Of a DNA stretch of 64,000 bases, positions 44,635-59,539 are shown piece after piece. A model generated the notes under the pieces. It had not been told where the DNA came from. It ran no database searches and saw only the letters and a list, made by a program, of their open reading frames with translations. The stretch covers positions 778,172 through 842,171 of the forward strand of contig NZ_WTYI01000001.1 of assembly GCF_009827445.1 (NCBI RefSeq), given 5' to 3'. Numbering within the stretch: the first letter of the stretch is position 1; the number at the start of each line of letters is the position of its first letter. The stretch comes from Qipengyuania aquimaris. GTDB taxonomy: Bacteria > Pseudomonadota > Alphaproteobacteria > Sphingomonadales > Sphingomonadaceae. Made by a program: the position numbers and the translations under genes.

Positions 44635-45827
44635 GCGAGACAGAGGAAATCGTCCGTATTGCCGCCAAGGGCGACGGCGTCACACAGTCGGGCAGGCACA
44701 TTGCGGGTGCCGTCACCGGAGACACAGTGACGCCGGATGGATCGATCGAAGCCGGTCCACATCAAGTGACGCCACCTTGCCGTCACTTCGGCAAATGTGG
44801 CGGGTGCCAGCTCCAGCACGCGGATGAAGCGGCCCTCATGCAATTCGTGACCGACCGTGTGGTCAATGCCGCGCGGGGCCAGGAGATCGAGATCGGCGAG
44901 GTCCTGCCGACCCACCTTTCACCGGCGCGCTCGCGGCGGCGTGCGACCCTCCATGCGCTCAAGGCGAGGAAGGGCGCCGTCGTCGGTTTCCGCGAAGCGC
45001 GCAGCAACCGCATCGTCGACATGCAGCAATGCGAGATCCTCGACCCGCGCCTGTTTGCGCTGGTCGCACCCCTTCGCAAGCTGGTCGCCAGCCATGCCGA
45101 ACGCACACCGGTGGATGTTTCGCTGACCCTTGCCGACCAAGGCATCGATTGCTCAATCAAGGGGATCGAGGCTGACGGACTGGCAGCCACCGAAGCCCTG
45201 CTGGACTTTGCGCGGGACCATTCCCTTGCGCGTCTCTCGCTTGACCAGGGGTTCGGCCCGGAAGTTGTCTGGGAACCCGAACCCGTGACGATTTCGCTCG
45301 GCGAGGTTCCGGTCGGCCTGCCGCAAGGCGCATTCCTCCAGCCGACGACGGACGGCGAGGAGGTGTTGCTCGCCGATGCGAAGCGCTGGCTGGCAGGGGC
45401 GAGCACGGTAGCCGACCTATTCTCAGGCCTCGGGACATTCGCATTCGCTCTCGCAGGCTCGGCCAAGGTTCTTGCTGCAGAAGCGGCGCGCGACGCGCAT
45501 CTCGCTTGCAATTCGGCCGCCAACAGCCGCGGCATCGCTGTGCACGCCATGCATCGAGACCTGTTCAGGAATCCATTGCAAGCGACCGAAATTTCGAAGT
45601 TTTCTTCTGTCCTTCTCGATCCGCCCCGTGCAGGGGCACGGGAACAGGTCGCGCAGATTGCCGCGAGCGAAATCGAACGGGTTGTGTATGTGAGCTGCAA
45701 CCCGTCAAGCTGGGCGCGCGATGCGAAGACGCTGATCGATGCCGGGTTCAAGCTGGAAGCGTTACGTCCGGTCGGTCAGTTCCGCTGGTCGACGCACGTC
45801 GAGCTTACCAGCTACTTCACGCGCTAG
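44631..45827 (+). CDS. TrmA/RlmD-family RNA (uracil-5) methyltransferase
   Basis: The 398-residue enzyme has a short N-terminal part without a full TRAM domain. Iron-sulfur cysteines lie in CRHFGKCGGCQLQH and in MQQCEILDP. The SAM motif is VADLFSGLGTFAFALAGS, followed by LLDPPRAGAREQVAQIA and the catalytic Cys in VYVSCNPSSWARDAKTL. It should make 5-methyluridine in 23S rRNA or tRNA; the target is not fixed by the sequence. Its TAG overlaps the stop of the convergent exosortase-associated hydrolase gene (CTAG). Confidence 0.9.
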   Translation: MSETEEIVRIAAKGDGVTQSGRHIAGAVTGDTVTPDGSIEAGPHQVTPPCRHFGKCGGCQLQHADEAALMQFVTDRVVNAARGQEIEIGEVLPTHLSPARSRRRATLHALKARKGAVVGFREARSNRIVDMQQCEILDPRLFALVAPLRKLVASHAERTPVDVSLTLADQGIDCSIKGIEADGLAATEALLDFARDHSLARLSLDQGFGPEVVWEPEPVTISLGEVPVGLPQGAFLQPTTDGEEVLLADAKRWLAGASTVADLFSGLGTFAFALAGSAKVLAAEAARDAHLACNSAANSRGIAVHAMHRDLFRNPLQATEISKFSSVLLDPPRAGAREQVAQIAASEIERVVYVSCNPSSWARDAKTLIDAGFKLEALRPVGQFRWSTHVELTSYFTR

Positions 45828-46597
45828 GACCGCAGCGCTGCGAGCACCTGCGTCCGCAGCCATTCACGGGCGTGAGATTCGGCATAGGCGTGGCCGGCCG
45901 AACTGCAGATGGCGATACGCTCGTCGAGGCCCCAATCGGCAGCGAAAACCTGCGCTGTCCGGTCGTTTTCGGCGACGAGGAAGCGGACTTTCCCTTCGAA
46001 TTGCGAAAGACCCTCGCGGAGCGGGGCGATAGGGGGATTGGTTGTCGGGCCGCTTCCGGACGCGTGCCGGATACCGCTTGCCAGTTTCTCAAGGTCGACC
46101 TTTCCGCTCAGCAGGCGCCAGATTTCCTTCGGCTTGCCGAGTTTTGCGAGATAGCGCGATCGTACAGTGGCGGCAGGCGGTAGCGTCTGCGAACTGTCAG
46201 CAATCGCCCAGGGGTTGCTCAGCACGAGACCATCGAACCCGGCACCCTCTGCCAACATGAGCGCCGAGGCACCATCGCAATTGCCGAAACCGACCACACG
46301 GTTCACCTGGGGCGAGAGCGCGCGAAAGGCCTGTAGTGCGGAGGTGATGTCCTTGCGCGACTTCTCGTATCCGCGATCTTCGCCTTCGCTATCGCCGATC
46401 CCGCGCCTGTCGAAGCGAAAGACGGGAAAACCAGCTTTGGCGACTTCGGCAGCAAGGCGTGCCTGCCATCCGAATGCCCCCGCGCGCGGCTCCTGACCGC
46501 CCGTCACGATCAGCAATCCGGTCGTGCCGGGCGCATTGTCGAGCGTTCCGCCGAGGCTCAGCCCACCGCAGTGGAAGGCAAGATGGAGGCGGCTCAT
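45824..46597 (-). CDS. Exosortase A system-associated hydrolase 1
   Basis: The 257-residue alpha/beta hydrolase matches the TIGR03100-type protein of XrtA loci. Landmarks are LLIVTGGQEPRAGAFGWQA, FRFDRRGIGDSEGEDRGYE and a nucleophile elbow GFGNCDGASALML. The nucleophile is therefore C107, not serine, as in dienelactone hydrolases. The catalytic His is probably in SSAGHAYAESHA near the C-terminus. Its substrate is unknown; it may cleave a thioester or release a product of the neighbouring carrier-protein pathway. It overlaps hydrolase 2 by four bases and is last in the leftward arm. Confidence 0.85.
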   Translation of the reverse strand: MSRLHLAFHCGGLSLGGTLDNAPGTTGLLIVTGGQEPRAGAFGWQARLAAEVAKAGFPVFRFDRRGIGDSEGEDRGYEKSRKDITSALQAFRALSPQVNRVVGFGNCDGASALMLAEGAGFDGLVLSNPWAIADSSQTLPPAATVRSRYLAKLGKPKEIWRLLSGKVDLEKLASGIRHASGSGPTTNPPIAPLREGLSQFEGKVRFLVAENDRTAQVFAADWGLDERIAICSSAGHAYAESHAREWLRTQVLAALRS

Positions 46598-47274
46598 GAG
46601 GCTCCAGCCTCTTTTGCGATGACAGCGGCGAGGGCTTTCGCCTGCTTTTCGTCTATGCCACCCTCGCTGCTTAGCCAGAGCGCGCGGCCTCCGATTTCCT
46701 CATGCGCGATAGTTGTGACCCCATCGCTCTGGTCCGTTTGCGTTTCGCAAAGCTGCTGCGCCATGGCAGGCGCGATCTGCCAACCCGCAATGGTACCTCC
46801 GCTTGCGCGGGCGCTATCGAGAATTTCCGAGGGGCTGCGGTGGTTGCCTGCCTCCTTCTCGGCAAGGCTCTGCGCACGTGCCATGGCGCGCAGCAGTTTT
46901 GCGGGATCGTGCGAGGCGTAATGGAAGGCGGGAACCGCGCCCGTGTCGAGCGTACAGGCCGATCTTACGAAGAGTGCGCGGCTGACACCGAAATGTTCGG
47001 TCGCTGAAGTAACTGCTGCGCGCCATGCCGACAGGGTTTGCGCGGCCTGGGGCTGGAGGCTTTCGTTCGTCCCCGGCAAGTCCGGCATGACGCTGGTTAG
47101 GCCGAGATCCTGCAAGGTGCGCATCAACAGGACGAGCTGCGCGCGCACCCGATTGGCCTCATCGAACAGCGGCGGAATTATCAGAAGGTCGGGATTGGCC
47201 TTGCGGGCAGTGGAGAGCGCCATTTCCATGCTCGTCCCGCCATCGGGAAGCGGGGCGGGCCATTCAATAAACAT
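46594..47274 (-). CDS. Exosortase A system-associated hydrolase 2
   Basis: This 226-residue alpha/beta-hydrolase-like protein fits the TIGR03101-type partner in XrtA loci. The early region (NPDLLIIPPLFDEANRVRAQ, then LTSVMPDLPGTNESLQPQ) matches the fold. At the expected elbow the sequence is ALFVRSACTLDTG, without a clear GxSxG, so it may be a non-catalytic partner. It lies between the ACP gene (12 bp upstream) and hydrolase 1 (4-base overlap), indicating one transcript. Confidence 0.8.
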   Translation of the reverse strand: MFIEWPAPLPDGGTSMEMALSTARKANPDLLIIPPLFDEANRVRAQLVLLMRTLQDLGLTSVMPDLPGTNESLQPQAAQTLSAWRAAVTSATEHFGVSRALFVRSACTLDTGAVPAFHYASHDPAKLLRAMARAQSLAEKEAGNHRSPSEILDSARASGGTIAGWQIAPAMAQQLCETQTDQSDGVTTIAHEEIGGRALWLSSEGGIDEKQAKALAAVIAKEAGAS

Positions 47275-47286
47275 GGAAAAGCGCGC

Positions 47287-47586
47287 TCAGCCTTCGATGA
47301 CCTTGGCTTCGGCAAAGGCCAGGAGAGCGCCGTAGGTCTCCAGCATTTCTCCGTCGACGTCGTCGTCTTCGATGATGATATCGAGGCGGTCTTCCATCTC
47401 GGTGAGAAGTGTTGCGACGGCCATAGAGTCGAGTTCCGGCAGGTGACCGAACAACCCGGTATCGCCGTCGAATTCGGCAACCTGCTCGGGATCGAGTGCC
47501 AGCACGTCGGACATGATGGACCGCAAGGCGGGATCGATGGCGGTGCGGCTCGGACCGGTCGGCTCGGATGTGGCGGTTTCGCCCAT
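47287..47586 (-). CDS. Acyl carrier protein of the XrtA locus
   Basis: The 99-residue carrier starts at ATG 47586; longer frames overlap the upstream gene. The phosphopantetheine attachment serine is S54 in LPELDSMAVATLLTEMEDRL, the typical DSM/DSL context. The protein is strongly acidic (IIIEDDDVDGEMLETYG). It would carry an acyl or aminoacyl group loaded by the ligase encoded divergently at 48603-50156. Such dedicated carriers are a known component of XrtA exopolysaccharide regions, but the cargo has not been established to my knowledge. Confidence 0.88.
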   Translation of the reverse strand: MGETATSEPTGPSRTAIDPALRSIMSDVLALDPEQVAEFDGDTGLFGHLPELDSMAVATLLTEMEDRLDIIIEDDDVDGEMLETYGALLAFAEAKVIEG

Positions 47587-47623
47587 AGGTCTGAAAGGTT
47601 CCCCTCTTGAAGCGGAGGCCGCC

Positions 47624-48610
47624 TTAGCCGTGCGCCTTGCGCGGTGCAAGGCGGCCAAGCATCCGCTTGGCAAGGGCCGGCCAGGCAGCCGGTTGCCGGA
47701 TGTCGAGGCAGGTAAGGTGGAAGCGAGGGCGGCACTCCTCCATCCAGTCGCGTTTGTAAGAGTCCGAACCCGTCCCGAAGTCGATCAGGTCTACGCGATC
47801 GACGTCGATTGCATATTCGAACAGCGCCGCAGTGAGGACAGTGCCTGCCGAATAAGGCTCCGCGCTCTCGAGGTGGGCGAGCTTGTGGATGGAGGCGACA
47901 CCGTTTTCGACGCTCCAGAACTGCGCGGCGACGGGGTCACCGTCTACCCGAGCGATGCCGAGACGGTAGGCTCCGCGACTGTCTTCCTGCCGTGCAAATG
48001 CCTTCAGGATGTCGGCCCGCTCCTCGCGTGGTTTCCAGCTCCTGTCATAGATTGCTTCGTAATTTTCCCACTCATCTTTCTGGAATTCAGTCGAAATTTC
48101 GATATCGACCTTGGGTGCCTTGCGCTTGACTGTCGTTTTCATCCGGCCCGGACGCGCGTTCCAGTATTCGGCGAAACTGCGTCCCTGGACGTAGAGGACG
48201 TGATTCTCATCGCACTGCTCGCCATGCACAGACCAACCTGCATGCTCGAAAGCTTCGCATAGCTCTTCGTAGCACCCGTCTTCCGCCGCTAGCGGGTACA
48301 GGTCGAGGCGATGCGTTGTCTTCTTCAGGTCGTGGGCGATCTCGACGAGAATGCGCGATGTATCGCCGCCGCTGGCAAGCGGTTTCCAGGAAAATGCGAA
48401 CCAGTTCGTGAGCGGCTCGAGACCTTTTTGCCCGCGCGTCAGCGGAAGGGCGACAGTCCTCTCCCCTTCGGTACCGACAGCGACCAGCGGCGCTGCGCCA
48501 TGCGTTTCCAGCAGGCGGTACCATTCATATCGGTCGAAAGGTCCCGCTTCCGGGCTGCCGAGCCCTTGCAGTTTTGTAACCGTGTCGTGATAGCTGACCG
48601 TGATGACCAC
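47624..48610 (-). CDS. GNAT/FemAB-like acyltransferase of the XrtA locus
   Basis: The 328-residue protein has the double-GNAT (CelD/BcsL-type) layout: LDLYPLAAEDGCYEELCEAF, ARPGRMKTTVKRKAPKV and the acceptor domain RLGIARVDGDPVAAQFWSVE. ASIHKLAHLESAEPYSAGTV and VDLIDFGTGSDSYKRDW follow. It probably transfers an acyl or aminoacyl group to a sugar or lipid. The GTG at 48610 is chosen (GGGGAG upstream, protein starting VVITVSYHD); the frame extends to 48649. Its start lies within the first codons of the divergent ligase gene. Confidence 0.82.
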   Translation of the reverse strand: MVITVSYHDTVTKLQGLGSPEAGPFDRYEWYRLLETHGAAPLVAVGTEGERTVALPLTRGQKGLEPLTNWFAFSWKPLASGGDTSRILVEIAHDLKKTTHRLDLYPLAAEDGCYEELCEAFEHAGWSVHGEQCDENHVLYVQGRSFAEYWNARPGRMKTTVKRKAPKVDIEISTEFQKDEWENYEAIYDRSWKPREERADILKAFARQEDSRGAYRLGIARVDGDPVAAQFWSVENGVASIHKLAHLESAEPYSAGTVLTAALFEYAIDVDRVDLIDFGTGSDSYKRDWMEECRPRFHLTCLDIRQPAAWPALAKRMLGRLAPRKAHG

Positions 48611-50156
48611 CGGTAACTCCCCGTCTGGATCGCTCCAGCCTGATCCCACGCCGCAACCGTTGGATCAACTCGCCGAGCTTGGCGATGCACAGTCACGCGC
48701 TCTCGTGTTGAGAGCCAAGGTGCTCACCTACGCTGACTTGCGCCAGGGTGTGGCGCTACTGGCAGGGTTGCTGGCCAGCAAATGCGAGCAGGGATCGCGG
48801 GTTGCCAGCTGGGCCGCGAAGGGAGAACTCACCTGCCTCCTGCCGCTTGCCGCTGCACGTGCGGGGATGATCCATGTACCTATCAATCCCCTGCTCAAGC
48901 ATGGGCAGGTTGCGCATATCCTGCGGGACAGCGGCGCCTGCCTGCTCATGGCGACGCCTGCACGCCTCAAATCGCTGGAAGAAGGCGACATCCCGCCGAA
49001 CTGCGAAGTAATCGCGGAGGACGATGTTTCCGGGCTGGCCAGCGCAGCCGGCCAGTCGCTTGGTCCTTCGGACCGCGACCCGGACGAGCTCGCTGCGATC
49101 CTGTACACCAGCGGATCCACCGGAGCGCCCAAAGGCGTAATGCTGAGCCATGCGAACCTGTGGCTGGGCGCGGTCTCGGTCGCCCACTACCTTGGCATGG
49201 AGGCGGACGATGTAACACTCGCCGTACTCCCCTTGAGTTTTGATTACGGGCAGAACCAGCTGCTCAGCACCTGGTACGCAGGCGGCTGCGTCGTGCCGCT
49301 AGATTACCTGTTCCCCAAGGACGTCGTGAAGGCCTGCGCCAAACATGCCGTGACGACCCTTGCGGCCGTGCCTCCGCTCTGGGTGCAGCTTACCGAGGTC
49401 GAATGGCCTGAAGAGGCTGTCGCATCGATGCGCCGGATGACGAACAGTGGCGGGGCATTGACCGAAGACTTGGTCGCAGACCTGCGCGCGATGTTCCCCG
49501 AAGCGCAATTGTTCCCGATGTACGGCCTGACGGAGGCGTTCCGATCGACTTATCTTGATCCCGCTCTTGTGAACACACATCCTACCTCGATGGGCAGGGC
49601 CATCCCGTTTGCGGAGATCCTCGTGATCGACGACGAGGGCGATCCCGCAAGGGCAGGGGAAGAAGGCGAACTGGTCCACTGCGGCCCTCTGGTTGCCCAA
49701 GGCTACTGGCAGGATCAGGACCGTACCGCCGAACGGTTCAAGCCGGCTCCCCCTTCTTCCAGCTATGGCGGCGTTGCCGTTTGGTCCGGCGACAGGGTTA
49801 AACGCGACCAAGATGGCCTGCTGTATTTTGTCGGACGCCGCGATGCGATGATCAAGAGCGCGGGAAACCGCATCAGCCCGCAGGAAATCGAAAGCGCGGC
49901 GCTGGCGACGGGACTGGTAGCCGAGGCGGTCGCCTTCGGTGTAGCGGACGCCAAGCTGGGCCACGCTATCCACGTGGTTTCGCGTCCCGACGGGGAAGGG
50001 GCCATCGAAGAACTGGAGAAGCAGTTGAAACGCCAGCTATCGCGGGAGTTGCCTAATTTCATGCAGCCGCACGTCTATCACTGGCGTGATACGATGCCGC
50101 TCAATCCGAACGGCAAGATTGACCGGACCGCGCTGAAAAAGGAGTTAGGGGCATGA
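48603..50156 (+). CDS. Exosortase A system-associated acyl-CoA ligase (AMP-forming)
   Basis: The 517-residue adenylating enzyme belongs to the ANL superfamily: YTSGSTGAPKGVMLSHANL, LFPMYGLTEAFRSTYLDP, YFVGRRDAMIKSAGNRISPQ and the C-terminal lysine in MPLNPNGKIDRTALKKEL. It matches the TIGR03098-type ligase which, in XrtA loci, is regularly next to the decarboxylase, as here (4-base overlap). It may load the ACP at 47287-47586. The ATG at 48603 is used although no good ribosome binding site precedes it; TTG at 48660 would shorten the protein by 19 residues. Confidence 0.88.
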   Translation: MTTGNSPSGSLQPDPTPQPLDQLAELGDAQSRALVLRAKVLTYADLRQGVALLAGLLASKCEQGSRVASWAAKGELTCLLPLAAARAGMIHVPINPLLKHGQVAHILRDSGACLLMATPARLKSLEEGDIPPNCEVIAEDDVSGLASAAGQSLGPSDRDPDELAAILYTSGSTGAPKGVMLSHANLWLGAVSVAHYLGMEADDVTLAVLPLSFDYGQNQLLSTWYAGGCVVPLDYLFPKDVVKACAKHAVTTLAAVPPLWVQLTEVEWPEEAVASMRRMTNSGGALTEDLVADLRAMFPEAQLFPMYGLTEAFRSTYLDPALVNTHPTSMGRAIPFAEILVIDDEGDPARAGEEGELVHCGPLVAQGYWQDQDRTAERFKPAPPSSSYGGVAVWSGDRVKRDQDGLLYFVGRRDAMIKSAGNRISPQEIESAALATGLVAEAVAFGVADAKLGHAIHVVSRPDGEGAIEELEKQLKRQLSRELPNFMQPHVYHWRDTMPLNPNGKIDRTALKKELGA

Positions 50157-51379
50157 AGCCGATCGGTCCGATACCCGAAGGTTTCGAAGCCCTGAACGGT
50201 GAACTTGCCTTTGGCGGTGTTCGCGTGTCGGAGATGGAAGCAAGGGCGGGGCGTACGCCGTTCTTCGCCTATTCCAAGTCCCTGATCTCGCAGAGGATCG
50301 CGGATCTGCGTGCATCTCTGCCCGAGCGTATCAAAGTCAATTACGCAATCAAGGCAAATAGTTACACGCCACTTCTCGAATTCATTTCGGGATTGGTCGA
50401 CGGTTTGGACATCGCCTCGGGCGGCGAGCTGGAGATGCTGCAGGACCTCGGCATCGACGGTCGCCGCGTCAGCTTTGCCGGTCCGGGCAAGCGCGACGCC
50501 GAACTGGAGGCCGCGATCGCCGCGGGGGTCACACTGAACCTGGAAAGCGAGAACGAGGCCTCGCGCGCGCTGGCCATTGCGGAACGCATCGGGAAGACGC
50601 CCCGGCTCGCGGTGCGGGTCAATCCGGATTTCGAGCTCAAGGGCTCGGGCATGAAGATGGGTGGCGGTGCCAAGCCCTTCGGTGTCGATGCCGAACGCGT
50701 TCCCGCGCTCATCCGCAGGATCGTGGACGCAGGCTGCGAATGGCGGGGTCTGCATATCTTCACCGGCAGCCAGGCCCTGAGTGCGGATGCGATTATCGAG
50801 GCGCAGGCCAATATCCTCGCACTGGCCCACAGGCTGGCGCGAGAGGCCGATATCACCTTGCCCAAGCTCAATATGGGCGGTGGTTTCGGCATTCCCTACT
50901 TCCACGGGGACGAACCACTCGATCTCGATCGTGTGGGAGAAGCCTTGTCCAAACATCTGCAAAAACTTCCGGATTCATTGAAGAGTGCAGAGCTCTTCGT
51001 GGAACTTGGCCGCTATCTGGTTGGCGAAGCAGGGGTCTATGTCACCCGCATCGTCGACCGGAAGGAAAGCCACGGTCAGACTTACCTCGTGACGGACGGG
51101 GGGCTGCACCACCAATTGGCCGCATCGGGAAATTTCGGCACCGTCGTTCGGCGGAACTACCCTGTCGCCATCGCCAGCCGTTTCGACGAGGAGCCTACCG
51201 AAGAGGTGAATATCGTGGGTTGCCTGTGCACCCCGCTCGACAGGCTGGCCGACAAGGCTTTCCTCCCGCGTGCGGAAGTGGGAGACCTTGTGGCGGTGTT
51301 CTGTGCGGGCGCCTACGGAGCGAGCGCTTCTCCCAGCGCATTCCTTGGTCAGGGCCCGGCTGCAGAAGTCCTGATTTGA
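50153..51379 (+). CDS. Exosortase A system-associated PLP-dependent decarboxylase
   Basis: The 408-residue enzyme is a fold-III (alanine-racemase-like) decarboxylase related to diaminopimelate and ornithine decarboxylases, of the TIGR03099 type. The PLP lysine is K67 in KVNYAIKANSYTPLLE. Phosphate-binding and active-site segments are GLDIASGGELEMLQDLGI, NMGGGFGIPYFHGDE and ELGRYLVGEAGVYVTRI. CLCTPLDRLADKAFLP is near the end. The substrate is unknown; it could be an amino acid attached to the carrier protein or a free one. It overlaps the ligase gene by four bases. Confidence 0.88.
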   Translation: MKPIGPIPEGFEALNGELAFGGVRVSEMEARAGRTPFFAYSKSLISQRIADLRASLPERIKVNYAIKANSYTPLLEFISGLVDGLDIASGGELEMLQDLGIDGRRVSFAGPGKRDAELEAAIAAGVTLNLESENEASRALAIAERIGKTPRLAVRVNPDFELKGSGMKMGGGAKPFGVDAERVPALIRRIVDAGCEWRGLHIFTGSQALSADAIIEAQANILALAHRLAREADITLPKLNMGGGFGIPYFHGDEPLDLDRVGEALSKHLQKLPDSLKSAELFVELGRYLVGEAGVYVTRIVDRKESHGQTYLVTDGGLHHQLAASGNFGTVVRRNYPVAIASRFDEEPTEEVNIVGCLCTPLDRLADKAFLPRAEVGDLVAVFCAGAYGASASPSAFLGQGPAAEVLI

Positions 51380-51538
51380 GACACTCTGATAATTCGTGCT
51401 AAATCCTAGCGATTCCGCGCGTTCGCGGGTCTATGACTAACGGTATGTTCACCTTTTTCGCGCAAGAAGCGGGGCGAATTTGGGATGATGCGTTTGTAGC
51501 GTTCGCTGCAGGTGCATCCACTATCAGGGATTTTCGGA

Positions 51539-52180
51539 ATGCAATCGTCGCGATCTGCCGCTCTCGCTCTCGTCCTTGGCGCAGGCGTTTCCTTGGGCGG
51601 CTGTGCCACCACCGGTGGTGAAGAACTGCCGCCGGCAACCTTCGTGTCCGCTCAGGAAGAGCCGGGTGCAGAATACATCATCGGACCGCTCGACGAGCTG
51701 ACCATCCACGTGTGGCGCAATCCGGAACTGGGTGCGGAAAACATCCAGGTGCGCCCTGATGGCCGCATTACGATCCCTCTGGTCAAGGACCTTGCTGCGG
51801 TCGGCAAGACGCCTTCGGAGCTGGAAGAAGACATCCGGGCGCAGTTGAGCCAGTATATCGAAGAACCGCTCGTGTCGGTCATCGTCAACGAGTTTGCGGG
51901 CACTTTCAGCCAGCAGATCCGCATTGTCGGCGCGACGGAGAAGCCTGCCTCGCTGCCGTATCGCGCGAATATGACCGTGCTCGACGCCATGATTTCGGTC
52001 GGCGGCCTCAGCGAATTTGCTGCGGGCAATCGCGCCAAGCTGATCCGGTTCGACAAGAACGCCGGAACGCAGCGGGAATATGCACTGCGTCTTACGGACC
52101 TGCTCAAGCGCGGCGATAGCGATGCCAACGTACTGCTCCAGCCCGGAGATGTGATCATCATACCGGAAAGCGCCTTCTAA
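51539..52180 (+). CDS. XrtA-locus polysaccharide export lipoprotein (Wza/OPX type)
   Basis: The 213-residue protein has a lipoprotein signal ending VSLGGC (lipidated Cys about residue 22) and then a Poly_export domain: EYIIGPLDELTIHVWRNPEL and VRPDGRITIPLVKDLAAVGK. A SLBB-like region (IRIVGATEKPASLPYRANMT) follows, and the end is LLQPGDVIIIPESAF. It forms the periplasmic/outer-membrane part of the exporter. The ATG at 51539 has AGGGA upstream; a 27-base longer frame is not supported. The 159 bp before it is the only sizeable gap in the rightward arm and probably holds the main exopolysaccharide promoter, although I could not identify one. Confidence 0.92.
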   Translation: MQSSRSAALALVLGAGVSLGGCATTGGEELPPATFVSAQEEPGAEYIIGPLDELTIHVWRNPELGAENIQVRPDGRITIPLVKDLAAVGKTPSELEEDIRAQLSQYIEEPLVSVIVNEFAGTFSQQIRIVGATEKPASLPYRANMTVLDAMISVGGLSEFAAGNRAKLIRFDKNAGTQREYALRLTDLLKRGDSDANVLLQPGDVIIIPESAF

Positions 52181-52195
52181 GGCGGAGCAGGGGGC

Positions 52196-53716
52196 ATGCA
52201 GGATATCATCGACCAGTTTCGCAGCGCGCTGCACACGATCTGGAACCGCCGCTGGATAGCGCTTGCGGTTGCCTGGGGCGTGTGCGTGCTGGGCTGGATG
52301 GCTGTGGCCCTGATCCCCAACAGCTACGAAAGCCGCGCGCGCATTTTCGTGGAACTGGAAGATGTGCTGGGTGAAGAGCTGCAGATCGCTAATGGCGGCG
52401 AGGAAGCGATCACGCGTGTTCGCCAGACCCTGACCAGCACGACCAATCTTGAGAAGATCATCCGCTCGACGCGATTGGGCGACAAGATCCAGACCGATCT
52501 CGAAATGCAGAACGCGGTTGCGGACCTGTCCGAGAATATCCGCGTCAGCCTGCAGCAGGAAAACCTGTTCGAAATCACCGCGACCATCGGGCGGAGCGGG
52601 TTTTCCGATGCTGAGAACGCCAAGCTGGCGCAGGAAGTCGTCCAGCGCATGATCGACCTGTTTCGCGAACAGAATATTGCCGACAATCGCGGCGACGTGG
52701 CGCAGACCATGATTTTTCTCGAGCAGGCCCTCGAAGAGCGCAAGGCCGAGCTCGAAGCGATCGAGGAGCGTCGCCTCGCCTTCGAAGCTGCAAATCCCGA
52801 AGCCGTTGCCGGAGCAGGTGCGAGCGCCATGCGCCTCCAGACGATGCGTAGCGAGATGCGCAATGTCGATTCGGATATCGCCGCGGCGCAAAGCTCGCTT
52901 GCCGCCATCAACGGCCAGATCGCCGGAACACCGCGTACCATCGTGACCGCAGGAGCCGGGGGCGGCCCGCAGGGCGCCTTGATCCAGGCGGAATCGCAGC
53001 TCGCAGCGATGCGCGCGCGCGGCCTGACCGACAGCCACCCTGATGTCGTGGCTCAGCTTCGGCAGGTAGAGGCACTGCGGCAGCAAGCCAGCGCAGCGCC
53101 AGCCAATTCCGGCGGCACGATCAATCCGGCCTATAGCTCGCTGGTATCAATCCGTGCCGAGCGGCAGGCCAACGTGCAGGCTCTACAGGCCCGCAAGGTT
53201 GCGCTGCAGTCCGATATCACGGCGCTGATCGCCTCGCAGGCCTCCGAACCGGCAGTTGCTGCCGAGGCGCGTCGCATCAGCCGCGATTATGAAGTCCAGA
53301 AAGAGAAGTACGACGAGCTGCTGCAAAGCAGGGAGCGTATGCGTGTGCGAGGGGATTATGAAACCAACCGCAACTCGTTCCAGTTCGACGTGATTGATCC
53401 GCCGATCCTGCCGCAGACACCTGCAGCGCCCAACCGGCCACTCCTGCTCGTGGGGGTCCTGATGGCCGGTCTTGCTATCGGAGCAGGCGTTGCTTTCATC
53501 CTCGGCTTGCTGCGCTCAAGCTTCACCACTGCCGAACGCCTCGAAAGTGCTCTGGACTTGCCCGTCATCGGGACGATTTCGCGATCCATGACCGACGCAG
53601 CTGCAAGGCACCAGAAATTGAGACTGAAGCAGTTCTTCGCCGGCAGTGGAGCGCTGGCCGCACTGTGCCTGCTGCTGCTGGTTGTCGAAATCGTGCAAGT
53701 AAGCTCGGTTGCGTGA
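52196..53716 (+). CDS. XrtA-locus polysaccharide chain-length determinant (PCP/Wzz family)
   Basis: The 506-residue inner-membrane protein has a first helix at about residues 18-40 (WIALAVAWGVCVLGWMAVAL), then YESRARIFVELEDVLGEELQ. A long coiled-coil periplasmic region follows (FLEQALEERKAELEAIEERR). The second helix at about 420-445 follows the proline motif IDPPILPQTPAAPNRPLLLV. A third hydrophobic segment ends the protein (ALAALCLLLLVVEIVQ). It sets chain length and joins the exporter. No kinase domain is fused; the next gene provides it. Confidence 0.93.
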   Translation: MQDIIDQFRSALHTIWNRRWIALAVAWGVCVLGWMAVALIPNSYESRARIFVELEDVLGEELQIANGGEEAITRVRQTLTSTTNLEKIIRSTRLGDKIQTDLEMQNAVADLSENIRVSLQQENLFEITATIGRSGFSDAENAKLAQEVVQRMIDLFREQNIADNRGDVAQTMIFLEQALEERKAELEAIEERRLAFEAANPEAVAGAGASAMRLQTMRSEMRNVDSDIAAAQSSLAAINGQIAGTPRTIVTAGAGGGPQGALIQAESQLAAMRARGLTDSHPDVVAQLRQVEALRQQASAAPANSGGTINPAYSSLVSIRAERQANVQALQARKVALQSDITALIASQASEPAVAAEARRISRDYEVQKEKYDELLQSRERMRVRGDYETNRNSFQFDVIDPPILPQTPAAPNRPLLLVGVLMAGLAIGAGVAFILGLLRSSFTTAERLESALDLPVIGTISRSMTDAAARHQKLRLKQFFAGSGALAALCLLLLVVEIVQVSSVA

Positions 53717-53726
53717 GGAGATGAGC

Positions 53727-54731
53727 GTGAACAAGCCCACCAATCTATCTCCTGACGGCAAGGCCGACGCGAAGGACAAGCGCGACTCGCTCCTCGAAAG
53801 GGCAAGCGGTGCTTATGGCCTGGACAAGCTGGCACCTGCTGCCGTTCCTGTCATGCTGGACGCGAACGCGAAGAAGAAATTCGCGCCTGCGCGCAAGCCC
53901 GCACAGGAGCCATCTCCCGTGGAGCGTCTCGCTGAAAAGAGCACACAGGGCGAACCCGCAGTGGAGGGTCGCCGCCGCAGCGATGCAAGCCCGGCGGTTC
54001 AATTCTGCGGTGAGAAACATCCCGTGTCGCGTGAACTTCTCCGCGAGCAGGGTCTGATCGATCCCGACGGGGGAGCCTCGCGGCTGCTTGAGGAATTCCG
54101 GATCGTGAAACGCCAGGTCCTGGCCTCTGCACGCTCCGAAGGAACCTCCGTTGCAAGGCGAGTATTGGTTTGCTCGCCGCATCCCGACGAGGGCAAGACT
54201 TTTTGTGCGCTGAACCTGGCACTGGCCATGGCTGCAGAGCGCGACAGCGAAGTACTGTTGATCGACGCCGATTTCGGAAAGCCCAGCATCCTCTCCAAGC
54301 TTGGCCTTACCAACGATACCGGTTTCATGGACGTGCTGGCAGATCCTGCCAGCCATGTGGAAGATCACGTAATCGGCACCGATATCCCTGGCCTTTGGGT
54401 GCTGGGGGCAGGCGCCCGTACGGGACGTGACAGCGAGTACCTCGCAAGCGAGCGGACGTGGGAAGTCCTCAACCGCCTCACGCGCGGGGCGCCGAACCGG
54501 ATGATCGTCTTCGACAGCCCGCCGGCTCTTGCAGCTACCCCTGCGAGCGAGCTGGCGAAGCACGTCGGCCAGGCGCTGCTGGTGGCGCGTGCGGACGTGA
54601 CCGGCCAGGTCGCGCTCGAAGATGCAATCGACCTGCTTTCGGCGTGTCCCGACATCCGCCTCTTGCTGAACGATGCCACGTTCAGCCCGAGCGGCCGCAA
54701 GTTCGGTAGCTATTACGGGTACGGGGATTAA
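53727..54731 (+). CDS. BY-kinase-like ATPase of the XrtA locus
   Basis: The 334-residue protein is the cytoplasmic CpsD/Wzc-type partner of the chain-length protein (TIGR03018-like). After a basic, low-complexity N-terminus come EFRIVKRQVLASARSE, the Walker A region CSPHPDEGKTFCALNLALAM with K157, and Walker A' VLLIDADFGKPSI. The Walker B-like strand is RMIVFDSPPAL. It ends GSYYGYGD, a very short tyrosine cluster that could be the autophosphorylation site. The GTG at 53727 fits GAGGAG spacing better than the ATG at 53721, but either is possible. Confidence 0.87.
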   Translation: MNKPTNLSPDGKADAKDKRDSLLERASGAYGLDKLAPAAVPVMLDANAKKKFAPARKPAQEPSPVERLAEKSTQGEPAVEGRRRSDASPAVQFCGEKHPVSRELLREQGLIDPDGGASRLLEEFRIVKRQVLASARSEGTSVARRVLVCSPHPDEGKTFCALNLALAMAAERDSEVLLIDADFGKPSILSKLGLTNDTGFMDVLADPASHVEDHVIGTDIPGLWVLGAGARTGRDSEYLASERTWEVLNRLTRGAPNRMIVFDSPPALAATPASELAKHVGQALLVARADVTGQVALEDAIDLLSACPDIRLLLNDATFSPSGRKFGSYYGYGD

Positions 54732-54735
54732 AGGC

Positions 54736-56376
54736 GTGGCCCGCCTCTTCGCTCTTCTTGCGACAGTGCTTGCGCTGTGTGCGGCTCCTGCGGCAGCGCA
54801 GGGCTATGGCAACGGCGAGCGTGAGGAAGAAGGCGCGAGCGCGGTCGATCGGACGCGTATCGATCCGTATATTGAAGCCTCGCAGATTTTCACTTGGCAG
54901 CTGTCGCCCGGCGACGATGTCGTGACCTACACGCAGGTTGCCGCCGGTGTCGACGCGCAGTTGCGCGGCCGGAACAGCGGGGCTGCGGTGTCCGTCCGCT
55001 ACGAACGCAATTTCGCCTGGGACGACAATGCCCGCGATACGGACCGCATTACCGGCATCGCCCGTGCTTACACGGCGATTATCCCGCGCACCTTGCAGGT
55101 CGAGGCGGGTGCTCTAGCCAGTCGGACGCGCACGGCCGGAACGGGCGGCTCCGTCATCGCTCCGATCATCGGCGACGACGATACGACGACCAAGACCTAT
55201 TCGCTTTATGCCGGGCCTACCCTGACCACCCGCGTCGAGGATGTGCAGATCGATGCGAATTACCGTATCGGCTATACAAGGATCGACGGTCCTGATTTCG
55301 TGACATTGCAAGGCGATGAAGTCGACCTTTTCGACGAGAGCGTTTCGCATTCCGCGATGGTTCGTGCCGCGACCTCCCCGGGAATGCCTTTTCCGGTTGG
55401 CGTGGGAGCGGGCGCAGGATTCTACCAGGAAGATATCGATAATCTCGACCAGCGGGTGAGGGATGCCTACGTGCGCGGAGACGTGACTATACCGGTTTCG
55501 CGCACGCTTGCGATTGTCGCCGGCGCTGGCGTCGAAGATGTCGAGGTCTCTTCCCGCGATGCGATACGCGATGTCGATGGCAATCCGGTTATCGGTTCGA
55601 ACGGTCGCTATCTTGTCGACAAGAGCAGCCCGCGGCGGATCGCCTATGAGGCCGACGGCCTGATCTGGGACGTCGGTGTTATCTGGCGCCCCAGCAGCCG
55701 TACCCAGCTCCAGGCCACCTTCGGTCGTCGCTACGACAGCGACACCTTCTATGGCAGCTTCAACTGGCAGCCGAGCAGCAGGTCCAACGTGTCGATTGGC
55801 GTTTACGATTCTCTGCAGGGTTTCGGCGGGCGCGTGAACGATGCGCTGGCCACGCTTCCGACCGATTTCGATGTGCTGCGCGATCCCGTTTCGGGCGATA
55901 TCACCGGCTGCACCAGCCCGACCGTGGGCAGCAATTGCCTTGCGGGCCTGCTCGGCTCGGTCCGTTCTTCGGTGTTCCGCGGACGCGGGGTTGTGGCGAG
56001 TTACTCGCACCGTGTGGGCCTGATGACCGCCGGCATTGCTGCCGGATACGACAATCGCAAATTCATCGCTGCGCAGGGCACCGTGCTGGCTGCGGCCAAC
56101 GATGTGGTGGACGAAAGCTACTACGTCACCGCTGGGGTCAGCGGACCTATCTGGGAAGGCAGTTTCAGCGTGAACACCTTCGGCAGCTGGTTCGACAGCG
56201 GTGTTGGCGAATTCGGCGATACCTTCTCTTACGGAAGTTCCGCTTCCTACTACCAGTCGATCTGGCAGAACCTTTCTGCCCGCGCTGCGGTTTCGATTTA
56301 TGCCGTTGATTCCGAACTCAGCGAGGCGGATATTCGCGCGGCAACCGCGCTTCTCGGCCTGCGCTACGATTTCTGA
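54736..56376 (+). CDS. XrtA-locus outer-membrane beta-barrel protein (TIGR03016-like)
   Basis: The 546-residue protein has a signal peptide (ARLFALLATVLALCAAPAAAQ) and then repeated amphipathic beta-strands with alternating aromatic residues, such as AAVSVRYERNFAWDDNARDT, ATFGRRYDSDTFYGSFNWQ and GVVASYSHRVGLMTAGIAAG. The last residues LLGLRYDF end in phenylalanine as outer-membrane barrels do. It is placed where the PEP-CTERM-system-associated barrel occurs in XrtA loci and probably helps the polymer cross or attach to the outer membrane. The start is GTG at 54736, four bases after the kinase stop. Confidence 0.85.
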   Translation: MARLFALLATVLALCAAPAAAQGYGNGEREEEGASAVDRTRIDPYIEASQIFTWQLSPGDDVVTYTQVAAGVDAQLRGRNSGAAVSVRYERNFAWDDNARDTDRITGIARAYTAIIPRTLQVEAGALASRTRTAGTGGSVIAPIIGDDDTTTKTYSLYAGPTLTTRVEDVQIDANYRIGYTRIDGPDFVTLQGDEVDLFDESVSHSAMVRAATSPGMPFPVGVGAGAGFYQEDIDNLDQRVRDAYVRGDVTIPVSRTLAIVAGAGVEDVEVSSRDAIRDVDGNPVIGSNGRYLVDKSSPRRIAYEADGLIWDVGVIWRPSSRTQLQATFGRRYDSDTFYGSFNWQPSSRSNVSIGVYDSLQGFGGRVNDALATLPTDFDVLRDPVSGDITGCTSPTVGSNCLAGLLGSVRSSVFRGRGVVASYSHRVGLMTAGIAAGYDNRKFIAAQGTVLAAANDVVDESYYVTAGVSGPIWEGSFSVNTFGSWFDSGVGEFGDTFSYGSSASYYQSIWQNLSARAAVSIYAVDSELSEADIRAATALLGLRYDF

Positions 56377-56389
56377 TAAGGACGCCCTG

Positions 56390-57586
56390 ATGTACGAGGA
56401 ATTCTACGGCTTTACCGAGCGCCCTTTCCAGCTCACCCCCGATCCCGCTTTCTATTTCGAAAGCATCACGCACAAGAAGGCGCTGAGCTATCTCGGTTAT
56501 GGCCTCAACCAGGGTGAAGGATTCGTCGTCATCACGGGCGAAGTTGGCGCGGGTAAATCCACGCTGGTTGCGCATCTCAAGCAGAAACTGGACGACCGCC
56601 GCATGACGGTGGGCGAAGTCGTGACCAGCGCGCTCGACGGCGAAGAGATGATCCACGTCGCGGCACGCAGCTTCGGCCTCGATGTCGAAGGCGGCGACAA
56701 GGCGAGTGCGCTGGCGGCGATTGAACTGTTCCTTCATGAAGAGGCGCGAGGCGGCCGCCGTGTCCTGCTGATCGTCGACGAAGCGCAGAACCTGTCCATC
56801 GGCGCGCTCGAAGAATTGCGGATGCTGTCGAACTTCCAGCTCGGCTCGCACCCGCTGCTGCAGACGCTCCTCCTCGGCCAGCCGGAATTCAAACACCTGC
56901 TTGCCCAGTCGGACGAACTCGAACAGCTGCGCCAGCGCGTGATTGCGGCACATCACCTGGAGGCCATGCAGCCGGGCGAGATGGAGCCTTATGTCACCCA
57001 CCGCCTCGAACACGTTGGCTGGACCGGTAATCCCGAATTCGCCAGCGCGATCTGGCCGCGCCTGCACAAGGCGACGCTCGGCATTCCGCGCAAGGTGAAC
57101 CAGGTGATGAACCGCCTTCTGCTGATGGGCGCGCTCGAAGAACAGTCGATGCTCGAAGTCGATATGCTCGACGCGGTGATCGAAGAGATGAGCGGCGATG
57201 CATCTGCCGAAGCACAGGAGGCGCCGCAGCGTGCGCGTCCCGATCGCAACCTGCCTGCCTCCGATGCGATCGCAAAGGCTCGTACGGAAGCTGCCCCCGC
57301 CATGTCGAAAGCCGACGAGGCTGCTCGCAAGAAAGGCCTTCTCGATCACCAGATCGAAGCGATCGAAGGCGCATTCGCCCAGCGGGACAAACACATGGCG
57401 GCGCTCCGCCGCGAGGTGGAAAAGCTTGCCGCCGCCAAGGATAGCGAGGGTGCCGTGCCCGAAGATCTCGACCAGCGCCTCTCCGCCATCGAACAGCGCC
57501 TCGACGACCAGGAACGTTCGCTGCGTCACGTGCTGACCATGATGATCGACTATTTCGAGTCGACCGGAACCCGCGAAGCGGCGTGA
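56390..57586 (+). CDS. XrtA-associated ExeA-like ATPase
   Basis: The 398-residue AAA-type ATPase (TIGR03015-like) starts MYEEFYGFTERPFQLTPDP. It has Walker A GEVGAGKST with K56, Walker B RRVLLIVDEAQNL, and LRMLSNFQLGSHPLLQTLLL. The ExeA-like sensor region LGIPRKVNQVMNRLLLMGAL follows. From about residue 290 a predicted coiled coil extends to the end (LDQRLSAIEQRLDDQERSL). It may energise assembly of the export apparatus. The ATG at 56390 with AAGGA upstream is chosen; the frame upstream is inside the barrel gene. Confidence 0.93.
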   Translation: MYEEFYGFTERPFQLTPDPAFYFESITHKKALSYLGYGLNQGEGFVVITGEVGAGKSTLVAHLKQKLDDRRMTVGEVVTSALDGEEMIHVAARSFGLDVEGGDKASALAAIELFLHEEARGGRRVLLIVDEAQNLSIGALEELRMLSNFQLGSHPLLQTLLLGQPEFKHLLAQSDELEQLRQRVIAAHHLEAMQPGEMEPYVTHRLEHVGWTGNPEFASAIWPRLHKATLGIPRKVNQVMNRLLLMGALEEQSMLEVDMLDAVIEEMSGDASAEAQEAPQRARPDRNLPASDAIAKARTEAAPAMSKADEAARKKGLLDHQIEAIEGAFAQRDKHMAALRREVEKLAAAKDSEGAVPEDLDQRLSAIEQRLDDQERSLRHVLTMMIDYFESTGTREAA

Positions 57587-57606
57587 CGGCGTCGGAGGGG
57601 GCGTCC

Positions 57607-58479
57607 ATGAAACCGGGTAAAATCGTGAACGGCCTGTCGGTCGACGTCGAGGACTGGTTCCAGGTGGGCGCTTTCGAAAAGACCCTCAAGCGCGAGGATT
57701 GGGACGGGCTGGAACTGCGTGTCGGCGACAATGTCGCGCGCATCCTCGACCTGTTCGACGAGGCTGGGGTTAAGGCGACCTTTTTCACGCTTGGCTGGAT
57801 TGCCGAACGCAACAAGGCCGCCATGCGGGCCATCGTCGAGCGGGGTCACGAACTCGCCAGCCACGGCTATGACCACACGCGGGTATTCACCTTCACGCGA
57901 CAGCAGTTTTCCGACGATCTCGCGAAATCGCGCGCCATCCTCGAGGATGCGGGCGGGTGCGCGATCACCGGCTACCGCGCACCGAGCTTCTCCATCGATG
58001 CGCGCAACGCCTGGGCGCACGAGGTCCTTGCCGAGCACGGCTACGCCTATTCCTCCAGCGTCGCACCGGTGGTGCATGACCACTACGGTTGGCCCGATGC
58101 CCCGCGATTTGCCTTCAATCCGGTTGCGGGCAGCGACCTCGTCGAAATCCCGGTGACCACCGCCGTACTCGCCAACCGCAGGCTGGCAGCGGGCGGCGGG
58201 GGCTTTTTCCGCGTGCTTCCATATGGCTTCAGCCGCTGGGCCATCCGGCAGGTCAATCGGGAGGAAGGTCGTCCGGCGATCTTCTACTTCCACCCATGGG
58301 AAATCGACCCCGAGCAACCGCGCGTTGCCGAGGCGCCGCTGCGTTCGCGCCTGCGCCATTACACCAATCTCTCGCGCATGGCGGGCAAGCTGGGCGACCT
58401 GCTTGAGGATTTTTCCTGGGGTCGCATGGACGAGATTGCCCGGATCGAACGGGCGCGCGCCATGGACTGGGCCGCGTGA
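57607..58479 (+). CDS. XrtA-locus polysaccharide deacetylase
   Basis: The 290-residue protein has the NodB-type fold with the DUF3473 C-terminus usual in XrtA loci (TIGR03006-like). The metal and catalytic motifs are LSVDVEDWFQVG (D13, D16), GHELASHGYDHTRVF and ITGYRAPSFSIDARNAW. The tail has FYFHPWEIDPEQPRV. It should remove acetyl groups from N-acetylated sugars of the polymer. The ATG at 57607 has GGAGG eight bases upstream; a GTG at 57583 is also in frame. The protein has no signal peptide, so it probably acts in the cytoplasm on precursors. Confidence 0.92.
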   Translation: MKPGKIVNGLSVDVEDWFQVGAFEKTLKREDWDGLELRVGDNVARILDLFDEAGVKATFFTLGWIAERNKAAMRAIVERGHELASHGYDHTRVFTFTRQQFSDDLAKSRAILEDAGGCAITGYRAPSFSIDARNAWAHEVLAEHGYAYSSSVAPVVHDHYGWPDAPRFAFNPVAGSDLVEIPVTTAVLANRRLAAGGGGFFRVLPYGFSRWAIRQVNREEGRPAIFYFHPWEIDPEQPRVAEAPLRSRLRHYTNLSRMAGKLGDLLEDFSWGRMDEIARIERARAMDWAA

Positions 58480-59537
58480 ATGCGCCTGTCGCCGTGAATG
58501 TATCGGTCGCGCTTGCAGATATCGGCAGCGCGCAGGATCGCGCGCGCATCGAGGATTTCGTGCACGATCGGAACGGCAACGTTTTTCAGCGTCCAATGTG
58601 GCTCTCCGCGATCGAAGCGGGCACCGGTCAGAAGGCTTTGGGATTGGTCGCGGAACGCGGCGGGGTAATATGCGGGTGGTTGCCGCTCAGCGACGTCCAT
58701 TCGCCGCTGTTCGGCAGGGCTCTTGTATCGAGCGGTTTCGCGGTCGGCGGTGGCCCTCTGTATTCCGACGAGTTGGCTCTAGAGGCGCTTCTTGCCTCGG
58801 CTGCCGAACTCGCCATGCGGAACAGCGTCTCGACCATAGAGCTACGCTCATCAGAAGCGGTCGAAGGCTGGGACCTGATCGAAGGTCAGCACGCTGGCTT
58901 CGAAAGACCTCTCGAAGGCGACGACGAAGCGCAATTGCTCGCCATCCCCCGCAAGGCGCGCGCGGAGGTTCGTAAGGGCTTGGCCAACGATGTGGAGGTC
59001 ACTGTCGGTCGCAGCGAGCAGGATCTGGAGGCGCACTACCAGTGCTATTCCGAAAGCGTGCGCAACCTCGGCACACCGGTCTTCCCGCGCAGCCTGTTTG
59101 CGGCCGTGATTGAGGCGTTCGGGGACGACGCGGACATCCTCACGGTGTCGCACGAGGGCCGCCCGGTCTCGAGCGTGCTGTCGCTCTATCACGATGGGGC
59201 GGTCATGCCTTACTGGGGCGGCGGCCGCTGGGAAGCGCGGAGCCTGCGTGCGAACGAGCGGATGTATTACGAACTGATGTGCCATGCCCGTCGCAAGGGA
59301 ATGGACCGGTTCGACTTCGGTCGCTCCAAGACCGGGAGCGGTCCCTTTGCATTCAAGAAGCACTGGGGATTCGAGCCGGAGCCGCTCACCTATCGGCGCT
59401 GGACTGCGCCGGGGGTTGAGGCGCGCAACATCGACCCCACCGACGAAGGCTATTCGGCCAAGATCGAGCTCTGGAAGAAGCTGCCTCTTCCTGTCGCGAA
59501 TCTGATCGGCCCGTGGATCGCACGCGGTCTGGGTTAG
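58476..59537 (+). CDS. FemAB-family XrtA-associated transferase
   Basis: The 353-residue protein (TIGR03019-like) contains two GNAT-like halves: FVHDRNGNVFQRPMWLSAIE, RKARAEVRKGLANDVEV, HEGRPVSSVLSLYHDGAVMP, YWGGGRWEARSLRANERMYY and FDFGRSKTGSGPFAFKKHWG. FemAB proteins usually transfer amino acids from aminoacyl-tRNA; whether this one uses tRNA or the locus carrier protein is open. It is distinct from the GNAT-like protein at 47624-48610. The start is GTG overlapping the deacetylase stop (GTGA). Confidence 0.9.
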   Translation: MNAPVAVNVSVALADIGSAQDRARIEDFVHDRNGNVFQRPMWLSAIEAGTGQKALGLVAERGGVICGWLPLSDVHSPLFGRALVSSGFAVGGGPLYSDELALEALLASAAELAMRNSVSTIELRSSEAVEGWDLIEGQHAGFERPLEGDDEAQLLAIPRKARAEVRKGLANDVEVTVGRSEQDLEAHYQCYSESVRNLGTPVFPRSLFAAVIEAFGDDADILTVSHEGRPVSSVLSLYHDGAVMPYWGGGRWEARSLRANERMYYELMCHARRKGMDRFDFGRSKTGSGPFAFKKHWGFEPEPLTYRRWTAPGVEARNIDPTDEGYSAKIELWKKLPLPVANLIGPWIARGLG

Positions 59538-59539
59538 GC

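Follow-up and report, generated by a model that had tools for sequence, protein, structure and literature searches.

In a stretch of 64,000 nucleotides from Qipengyuania aquimaris (contig NZ_WTYI01000001.1, positions 778,172 to 842,171; called the window below), six genes adjoin the exopolysaccharide locus of exosortase A (XrtA). Three of them code for an acyl carrier protein (ACP), an AMP-forming ligase and a fold-III pyridoxal phosphate (PLP) decarboxylase. We propose that an omega-aminoacyl thioester is the product of this core trio: an acidic amino acid would be loaded onto the carrier through its distal carboxyl group and then decarboxylated while bound to the ACP. Judged from homology and conserved residues, this reading has a probability of about 0.7, while we see roughly even odds that the substrate is aspartate in particular. 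The remaining three genes, coding for a GNAT-fold acyltransferase and two alpha/beta-hydrolase-like proteins, are accessories, and the trio also occurs in relatives without XrtA.

Ligase and decarboxylase of the core trio

All six open reading frames (ORFs) were confirmed in place and orientation within 45824-51379 of the window. Gene content and order, like the conservation counts and residue identities given below, are direct observations. Family calls used the curated NCBIfam cut-offs together with Pfam. A preliminary description of this DNA had placed ACP, ligase, decarboxylase, GNAT and two small hydrolases in two tight operons of the XrtA locus, and all six genes were located in two divergent sets. 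Its ACP with a DSM serine was recovered as an LDSM motif, and its divergent AMP-forming ligase overlapping a PLP decarboxylase as matches over cut-off to TIGR03098 and TIGR03099 with a 4 bp overlap. The features of the core are as follows.

48600..50156, + strand: AMP-forming ligase; TIGR03098 at 632.9 bits against a cut-off of 592.35; second ATG at 48603
49242..49244, + strand: codon of ligase D215, aligned with VinN D230 (amino group); D in 25/25 rows
49446..49448, + strand: codon of ligase S283, aligned with VinN S299 (alpha-carboxyl); S in 17, T in 7 and A in 1 of 25 rows
49542..49544, + strand: codon of ligase R315, aligned with VinN R331 (alpha-carboxyl); R in 25/25 rows
50153..51379, + strand: fold-III PLP decarboxylase; TIGR03099 at 595.6 bits against a cut-off of 478.45
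50351..50353, + strand: codon of K67 in the KAN motif, presumably the PLP lysine; invariant in 24/24 rows
51230..51232, + strand: codon of T360 in the CTPxD motif; invariant in 24/24 rows
47287..47586, - strand: ACP, with the ORF open to 47673; PF00550 at 25.1 bits against 20.8; PDB 2lki at 1.5e-11
47425..47427, - strand: codon of the ACP serine in LDSM, the phosphopantetheine site by motif; S in 57/58 rows

The 25 ligase rows include the ligase of the window. The numbering S54 for the ACP serine in the preliminary description puts the ACP start at M30, which gives 47287-47586.

The specificity core of the ligase (residues 201-327) had VinN (PDB 3wv4/3wvn) as its first PDB match with an E-value of 1.1e-8, and 4-coumarate ligases followed at 1.1e-6. 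VinN is described as loading 3-methylaspartate onto the ACP VinL, after which VinO decarboxylates the residue on the carrier (PMC11284099), and VinN D230 as the residue for the amino group (PMC7756342). As such a VinN/VinO-type scheme requires, a freestanding ACP with a predicted phosphopantetheine serine is encoded beside the ligase and decarboxylase of the window.

For the decarboxylase, a comparison with PDB sequences gave BtrK (PDB 2j66, 7ru7) as the best solved match at 236 bits, against 149 bits for the best diaminopimelate (DAP) decarboxylase. A profile of 24 family members scored BtrK at 424 bits and the next protein, 6knh, at 290 bits. BtrK is the L-glutamyl-[BtrI ACP] decarboxylase, and by score the enzyme of the window appears nearer to it than to DAP decarboxylase. 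The residues C359, T360 and D363 are invariant in 24/24 family rows, all of which have CT[PST]xD (CTPLD in the window) as in BtrK, in contrast to CE[ST]xD in DAP decarboxylases. The acidic residue of CE[ST]xD reads the far amino group in DAP and ornithine decarboxylases, and its loss would therefore fit a substrate with a blocked far end, such as one attached to a carrier. The DAP decarboxylase LysA is ruled out as the identity of this protein, which scores 239.3 bits on TIGR01048, below the cut-off of 297.9, and has no CE[ST]xD. In a tree of 38 rows, four LysA rows stood apart (100/100) and 13 TIGR03099-type rows grouped together (100/100). Decarboxylases of a CT(G/S)AD type form a separate clade (L133-L137, and L140 outside the tree) in many genomes of family f28, and three neighbour genes recur in the same order beside them in L135, L136 and L140.

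From this evidence we infer every chemical step of the route, the choice of aspartate and the acceptor. In a first step, the ligase would load aspartate (or glutamate) onto the ACP via the distal carboxyl. The PLP decarboxylase would then strip the alpha-carboxyl of the ACP-bound residue, giving beta-alanyl-ACP, or gamma-aminobutyryl (GABA)- or 3-aminoisobutyryl-ACP. Finally the acyl group would be passed on, and the candidates for this step in XrtA organisms are the cysteine-bearing hydrolase 1, with its arginine-bearing partner, and the GNAT. Where XrtA is missing, another acceptor or release enzyme would be needed, as most such relatives have neither hydrolase 1 nor GNAT. The preliminary description had suggested that the ligase loads a carboxylic or amino acid onto the ACP and that the decarboxylase makes an amine from it or its precursor. 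Homology and residues back the loading of an amino acid as well as a decarboxylase in the same pathway, and they point further, to decarboxylation on the carrier in the manner of BtrK and VinO and to an acidic amino acid that is activated at its distal carboxyl.

Three known systems resemble the trio in different ways. The vicenistatin system VinN/VinL/VinO has the same three parts, with a ligase core like that of the window and the shared D/S/R residues, and a decarboxylase of the apparent on-ACP type. In contrast to vicenistatin, there is no polyketide synthase among the annotated neighbours here, no counterpart of VinM or VinK was identified, and the decarboxylase, being over cut-off in 165/199 family genomes, is not confined to one pathway. 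The butirosin proteins BtrI/BtrJ/BtrK, which lead from glutamyl-ACP to GABA-ACP, share the carrier protein and the nearest relative of the decarboxylase; BtrJ is not known to be an AMP-forming ligase of the family found in the window. BolO/BolC/BolN of the bolagladins combine a freestanding ligase, an ACP and a BtrK-like decarboxylase, and a conversion of aspartate to a beta-alanyl thioester has been proposed for them (PMC7756342). They feed a nonribosomal peptide synthetase (NRPS), whereas none was seen among the annotated neighbours here.

Several observations weigh against a VinN- and BtrK-like route. With the whole ligase as query, VinN was the best stand-alone enzyme, but NRPS chains holding two adenylation domains (LgrA, 8xjz) outscored it in total. 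S283 is exchanged for Thr in seven and for Ala in one of the 25 rows, and the NCBIfam name of the TIGR03098 ligase is acyl-CoA ligase. Nor is the CT motif confined to carrier enzymes: it also occurs in 6knh, annotated as a probable DAP decarboxylase, and in the eight other non-LysA rows. BtrK lies on a long branch with L126, and its exact place in the tree is unsure. In favour of the route, a fused methylaspartate (glutamate) mutase S+E protein of genome G014 (L119:10645-12576, - strand; TIGR01503, 450 bits) stands between a TIGR03099-like decarboxylase and its ligase, an arrangement as the vicenistatin route would want (PMC11284099). Glutamate mutase was, however, found in this genome only (L119 and the overlapping short locus L022) and was absent from the loci examined in the other genomes. 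Directly behind the decarboxylase of another relative pair lies a KedN5-like cobalamin radical SAM protein (L120:10638-12233, + strand; 150.9 bits, below cut-off), a hint of a C-methylated substrate or product.

The trio with and without exosortase A

All six genes are present in 61 of 80 named Sphingomonadales loci, which argues that their grouping is not due to chance. The other 19 comprise 14 loci without exosortase genes and five that are short or cut off by a contig end. Among named organisms, Qipengyuania and other Erythrobacteraceae were the nearest relatives found.

From these 80 loci we picked the 14 with ACP, ligase and decarboxylase but no match to export, chain-length, kinase, FemAB, glycosyltransferase or exosortase families, took four XrtA loci as controls and searched genome-wide. 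In all 14 relatives, some of them metagenome assemblies of unstated completeness, the trio stands together. XrtA was over cut-off in 0/14 compared to 4/4 controls; a different exosortase, scoring 114-130 bits, occurs in four of the 14. Hydrolase 1 showed the same distribution (0/14 and 4/4 over cut-off, elsewhere weak matches of 19-30 bits only), and the GNAT was present in 2/14 (not found in 12) and in 4/4 controls. The preliminary description had treated the six genes as one functional unit. As an inseparable module they are ruled out by these relatives, which hold the trio without XrtA and hydrolase 1 and mostly without GNAT; the separability of the core from XrtA is a direct observation. 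A TIGR03015-like ATPase match lies near the trio in 10/14 of the XrtA-negative named loci (L033, L034, L037, L038, L040, L041 and four more); in those ten the polysaccharide locus is otherwise largely missing, and one of the 14 has a deacetylase match.

In six loci without XrtA, the mean ratio of nonsynonymous to synonymous substitution rates (dN/dS) was 0.132 for the ligase (10 pairs) and 0.115 for the decarboxylase (15 pairs), compared to 0.120 (6 pairs) and 0.105 (15 pairs) in six loci with XrtA. These values are rough with a mean dS above 1, and purifying selection on both genes is about as strong without XrtA as with it.

A sample of 199 family genomes contained 165 with the decarboxylase and 129 with XrtA over cut-off. 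By hand tally, 124 have both, 5 XrtA only, 41 the decarboxylase only and 29 neither. The decarboxylase is thus present in 41 of the 70 family genomes without XrtA over cut-off. Its presence in 124/129 XrtA genomes speaks against a trio detached from the exosortase and indicates that the tie to the exosortase region is also real. The five XrtA-only genomes are G402 and four others whose decarboxylase matches, possibly from split genes, fall short of the cut-off but exceed LysA level. Assembly gaps may account for a few of the 41 decarboxylase-only genomes: a partial XrtA-like match of 198 bits occurs in G500, and in G382 (L197), where all six genes are present, the contig ends just behind the decarboxylase. 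Inspection of loci from 27 of the 41 genomes found ligase and decarboxylase together in 27/27 and the ACP in 25/27 (not found in L191 and L200), together with hydrolase 1 in 2, a GNAT relative in 5 and the export protein in 2.

In a phylum sample of 299 genomes, the decarboxylase was over cut-off in 19, the ligase in 18 (all inside the 19), XrtA in 20, and decarboxylase and XrtA together in 17. Three genomes (G267, G015, G007) have XrtA and no decarboxylase over cut-off; G107 and G155 have the decarboxylase without XrtA over cut-off. G155 is apparently the same genome as that of L106 (G312), which has another exosortase at the same place. The trio of G107 (L114) lies amid glycosyltransferases and a polysaccharide deacetylase, surroundings that keep a role in polymer synthesis possible.

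No conserved extra partner was found beside the trio of XrtA-negative genomes when eight representatives of the more frequent neighbour groups and two neighbours in L114 were scanned. Seven of these ten are unrelated (AFG1-like ATPase, pyridine-nucleotide oxidoreductase, iron-sulfur protein, formyltransferase, pirin, tRNA pseudouridine synthase, peptide deformylase); the other three gave no family match. The neighbours at the distant loci, scanned with NCBIfam, were mostly unrelated genes as well. Since relatives without the exosortase keep the core, the trio probably has a job of its own.

Accessory genes and the fate of the acyl group

The accessory genes and the context of the module in the window are listed here.

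47624..48649, - strand: GNAT-fold acyltransferase (accessory); PF13480 at 59.6 bits against a cut-off of 22
45824..46597, - strand: hydrolase 1, alpha/beta hydrolase (accessory); TIGR03100 at 214.6 bits against a cut-off of 168.45
46594..47274, - strand: "hydrolase 2"-like protein (accessory); TIGR03101 at 39.2 bits, below the cut-off of 202.75
51512..61739, + strand: XrtA exopolysaccharide genes from export protein to exosortase A (context); downstream of the core on the same strand
58476-59537, + strand: XrtA FemAB; TIGR03019 at 318.9 bits against a cut-off of 260.35
60717-61739, + strand: exosortase A, at the end of the XrtA polysaccharide genes

Within 51512..61739, matches to TIGR03027, 03007, 03015, 03006, 03019, 03087 and 03109 reached or exceeded the cut-off, and those to TIGR03018 and TIGR03016 fell short of it. 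The hydrolase 2 and hydrolase 1 genes overlap by 4 bp, like ligase and decarboxylase. The called ORFs of the divergent GNAT and ligase genes run into each other at the 5' ends, which means that the true start of one or both lies further in.

The preliminary description fared unevenly with the accessories. Its GNAT/FemAB-like transferase does have the GNAT fold of PF13480 but is not the XrtA FemAB, which is encoded at 58476-59537; the GNAT had no NCBIfam and no PDB sequence match at E<=0.01. Only one of its two small hydrolases stood: hydrolase 1 is over the TIGR03100 cut-off, whereas "hydrolase 2" falls far below that of TIGR03101 and has an Arg at its presumed elbow. The expected set of exosortase-region families, TIGR03098-03101, is accordingly complete here except for TIGR03101.

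Cys107 occupies the nucleophile elbow of hydrolase 1 (GxCD; C in 72/72 rows), and at least 95% of the rows have D212 and H236. Some acyl-transferring proteins of the alpha/beta hydrolase fold, e.g. PhaC, are known to carry Cys instead of Ser, and by this precedent acyl transfer from the ACP would be as likely for hydrolase 1 as hydrolysis. The "hydrolase 2"-like protein, without a Pfam match at E<=0.01, has Arg104 at the place read as the elbow (R in 60/60 rows), and for this reason it is probably not a hydrolase. Four distant "hydrolase 2" proteins (L111, L112, L113, L115; TIGR03101 confirmed for L111 and L112 only) have an Arg in the same stretch by eye. These proteins may be non-catalytic partners of the Cys-bearing hydrolase 1.

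In the strongest competing explanation, all six genes serve to modify the XrtA exopolysaccharide, or a PEP-CTERM protein, with an amino-acyl group that is assembled on the ACP and moved by the GNAT and/or the Cys hydrolase. The preliminary description had framed such a transfer as a carrier-protein route that would replace aminoacyl-tRNA, with a FemAB-like enzyme attaching the group to the polymer. The position of the module next to the XrtA polysaccharide genes, the near-constant company of decarboxylase and XrtA in the family sample, the hydrolase genes, which accompany XrtA and are mostly absent without it, and the polysaccharide surroundings of the XrtA-free trio in G107 all favour such a role. 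Against it stand the many relatives that hold the trio without XrtA, without hydrolase 1 and mostly without GNAT, and the three XrtA genomes of the phylum sample without a decarboxylase over cut-off. We consider decoration a plausible but minority reading.

Clearly less probable is a trio that builds the starter unit of an unrecognised secondary metabolite or lipid. The enzyme logic is the same as for the vicenistatin and bolagladin starter units, and in L126, L129 and L130 distant relatives adjoin two or more ligase-like genes. A decarboxylase in 165/199 family genomes would, however, be unusual for a secondary metabolite, and the eight scanned neighbour representatives of XrtA-negative genomes were unrelated genes or had no match. 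Independently of the trio, L126, L129 and L130, with distant decarboxylases and ligase-like genes, are possible loci for beta-amino-acid natural products.

We likewise give little credit to an acyl-CoA ligase and a free amino-acid decarboxylase that are neighbours by chance, in spite of the NCBIfam label and the lysA match below cut-off, because the best solved relatives are carrier-protein enzymes, CTPxD replaces CE[ST]xD, and the trio is together in 14/14 and 25/27 XrtA-negative loci.

A possible link to beta-alanine and coenzyme A

If the proposed route starts from L-aspartate loaded through its beta-carboxyl, its product would be beta-alanyl-ACP, and the trio could be a carrier-protein replacement of PanD (aspartate 1-decarboxylase) that supplies beta-alanine for pantothenate and coenzyme A (CoA). 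Beta-alanine would be a common product of both, here on the ACP, although PanD is a pyruvoyl enzyme acting on free aspartate and unrelated to the PLP decarboxylase.

PanD (TIGR00223) was absent in 22/22 decarboxylase-bearing genomes of a first set and in 19/19 decarboxylase-positive genomes of the phylum sample, which has PanD in 164/299 overall. The phylum-level contrast is weak by itself, because the rest of the class has PanD in only 13/73 by our own count in this sample and six of seven sampled members of family f30 have neither PanD nor the decarboxylase. Within the family, PanD was searched in a subset of 75 genomes and found in eight, each belonging to the 29 genomes in which both XrtA and the decarboxylase miss their cut-offs (8/34 decarboxylase-negative members), but in 0/41 decarboxylase-only and 0/5 XrtA-only genomes. 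The decarboxylase-positive sets of 22, 19 and 41 genomes overlap, and of the 124 family genomes with both XrtA and decarboxylase only 12, from the phylum sample, were searched for PanD. Among the 70 XrtA-negative family genomes, the association of PanD and decarboxylase gave a Fisher P of 0.00045, not corrected for kinship. The PanD-bearing G435 belongs to genus g199; both decarboxylase and XrtA are present in the two further members sampled from this genus. PanC was over cut-off in 162/165 decarboxylase genomes, the three misses being at most 70% complete, and in 25/34 decarboxylase-negative ones (own tallies). In at least 4/8 PanD genomes (L203-L206, decarboxylase not over cut-off), PanD lies within ~1 kb of PanC; this is not so in G435.

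A number of findings weigh against the link to CoA. Relatives of the ligase/decarboxylase pair below cut-off co-occur with PanD (e.g. G010, G022, G130, G149, G185). Moreover, 17 decarboxylase-negative genomes have PanC without PanD (13 without and 4 with XrtA); the 13 include the nearly complete G426, G489, G445 and G499 from genera that otherwise have the decarboxylase. Such genomes need another beta-alanine source or are auxotrophs. The eight PanD genomes may represent as few as two lineages, lineage confounds the contrast, and we know of no release enzyme. In view of the PanD-free genomes with PanC, the few PanD lineages and the release step, we regard this extension of the proposed route as tentative and rather unlikely.

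Published data touch the question at several points. In Table A2 of PMC7142369, the 19 Sphingomonadales and 3 Erythrobacter rows list PanD in 0/22, PanC in 21/22 and beta-alanine synthase (PYD3) in 2/22. Erythrobacter sp. SD-21 is given there with PanB and PanC and with none of PYD3, PYD2, ADC, AAM, GabT and GAD, while many other rows have the transaminases AAM or GabT, counted as possible beta-alanine sources (PMC7142369). This strain is locus L041 of our set and holds the trio. Zymomonas mobilis, also a row of Table A2, is reported as a pantothenate auxotroph for want of PanD (Gliessman 2017, cited in PMC10370309). In our set, genus g176 (2.1 Mb genomes) has neither a decarboxylase over cut-off nor PanD. 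Effluent of Sphingomonas Leaf257 is reported to contain pantothenate at a mean of 180 nM (PMC13392072), and DVU0867 of Desulfovibrio vulgaris is a precedent for a non-orthologous aspartate decarboxylase, identified by complementation of an E. coli panD mutant (PMC10102598). Among the matches listed in a literature search on exosortase, TIGR03099, beta-alanine, pantothenate, ACP and aspartate 1-decarboxylase, neither exosortase nor TIGR03099 appeared.

Chemistry of this kind is known from secondary metabolism; new are how widely it is spread in one bacterial family, both within and beyond XrtA loci, and the possible connection to CoA. TIGR03098-03101 are filed as exosortase-associated, and their model names give no substrate beyond "acyl-CoA ligase". 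The proteins of the window are members of TIGR03098, TIGR03099 and TIGR03100 by curated cut-off, but the core reaches beyond this filing as it also occurs without exosortase A, and the evidence suggests a concrete, testable chemistry for it, in which aspartate or glutamate would be turned into an omega-aminoacyl-ACP. Should the beta-alanine reading hold, XrtA loci would have grown around, or borrowed, a housekeeping module, and the trio would fill the beta-alanine step of Erythrobacter- and Sphingomonas-type bacteria that have PanB and PanC and no PanD. It would then be a candidate beta-alanine source for PanD-less alphaproteobacteria such as Erythrobacter sp. SD-21 (PMC7142369).

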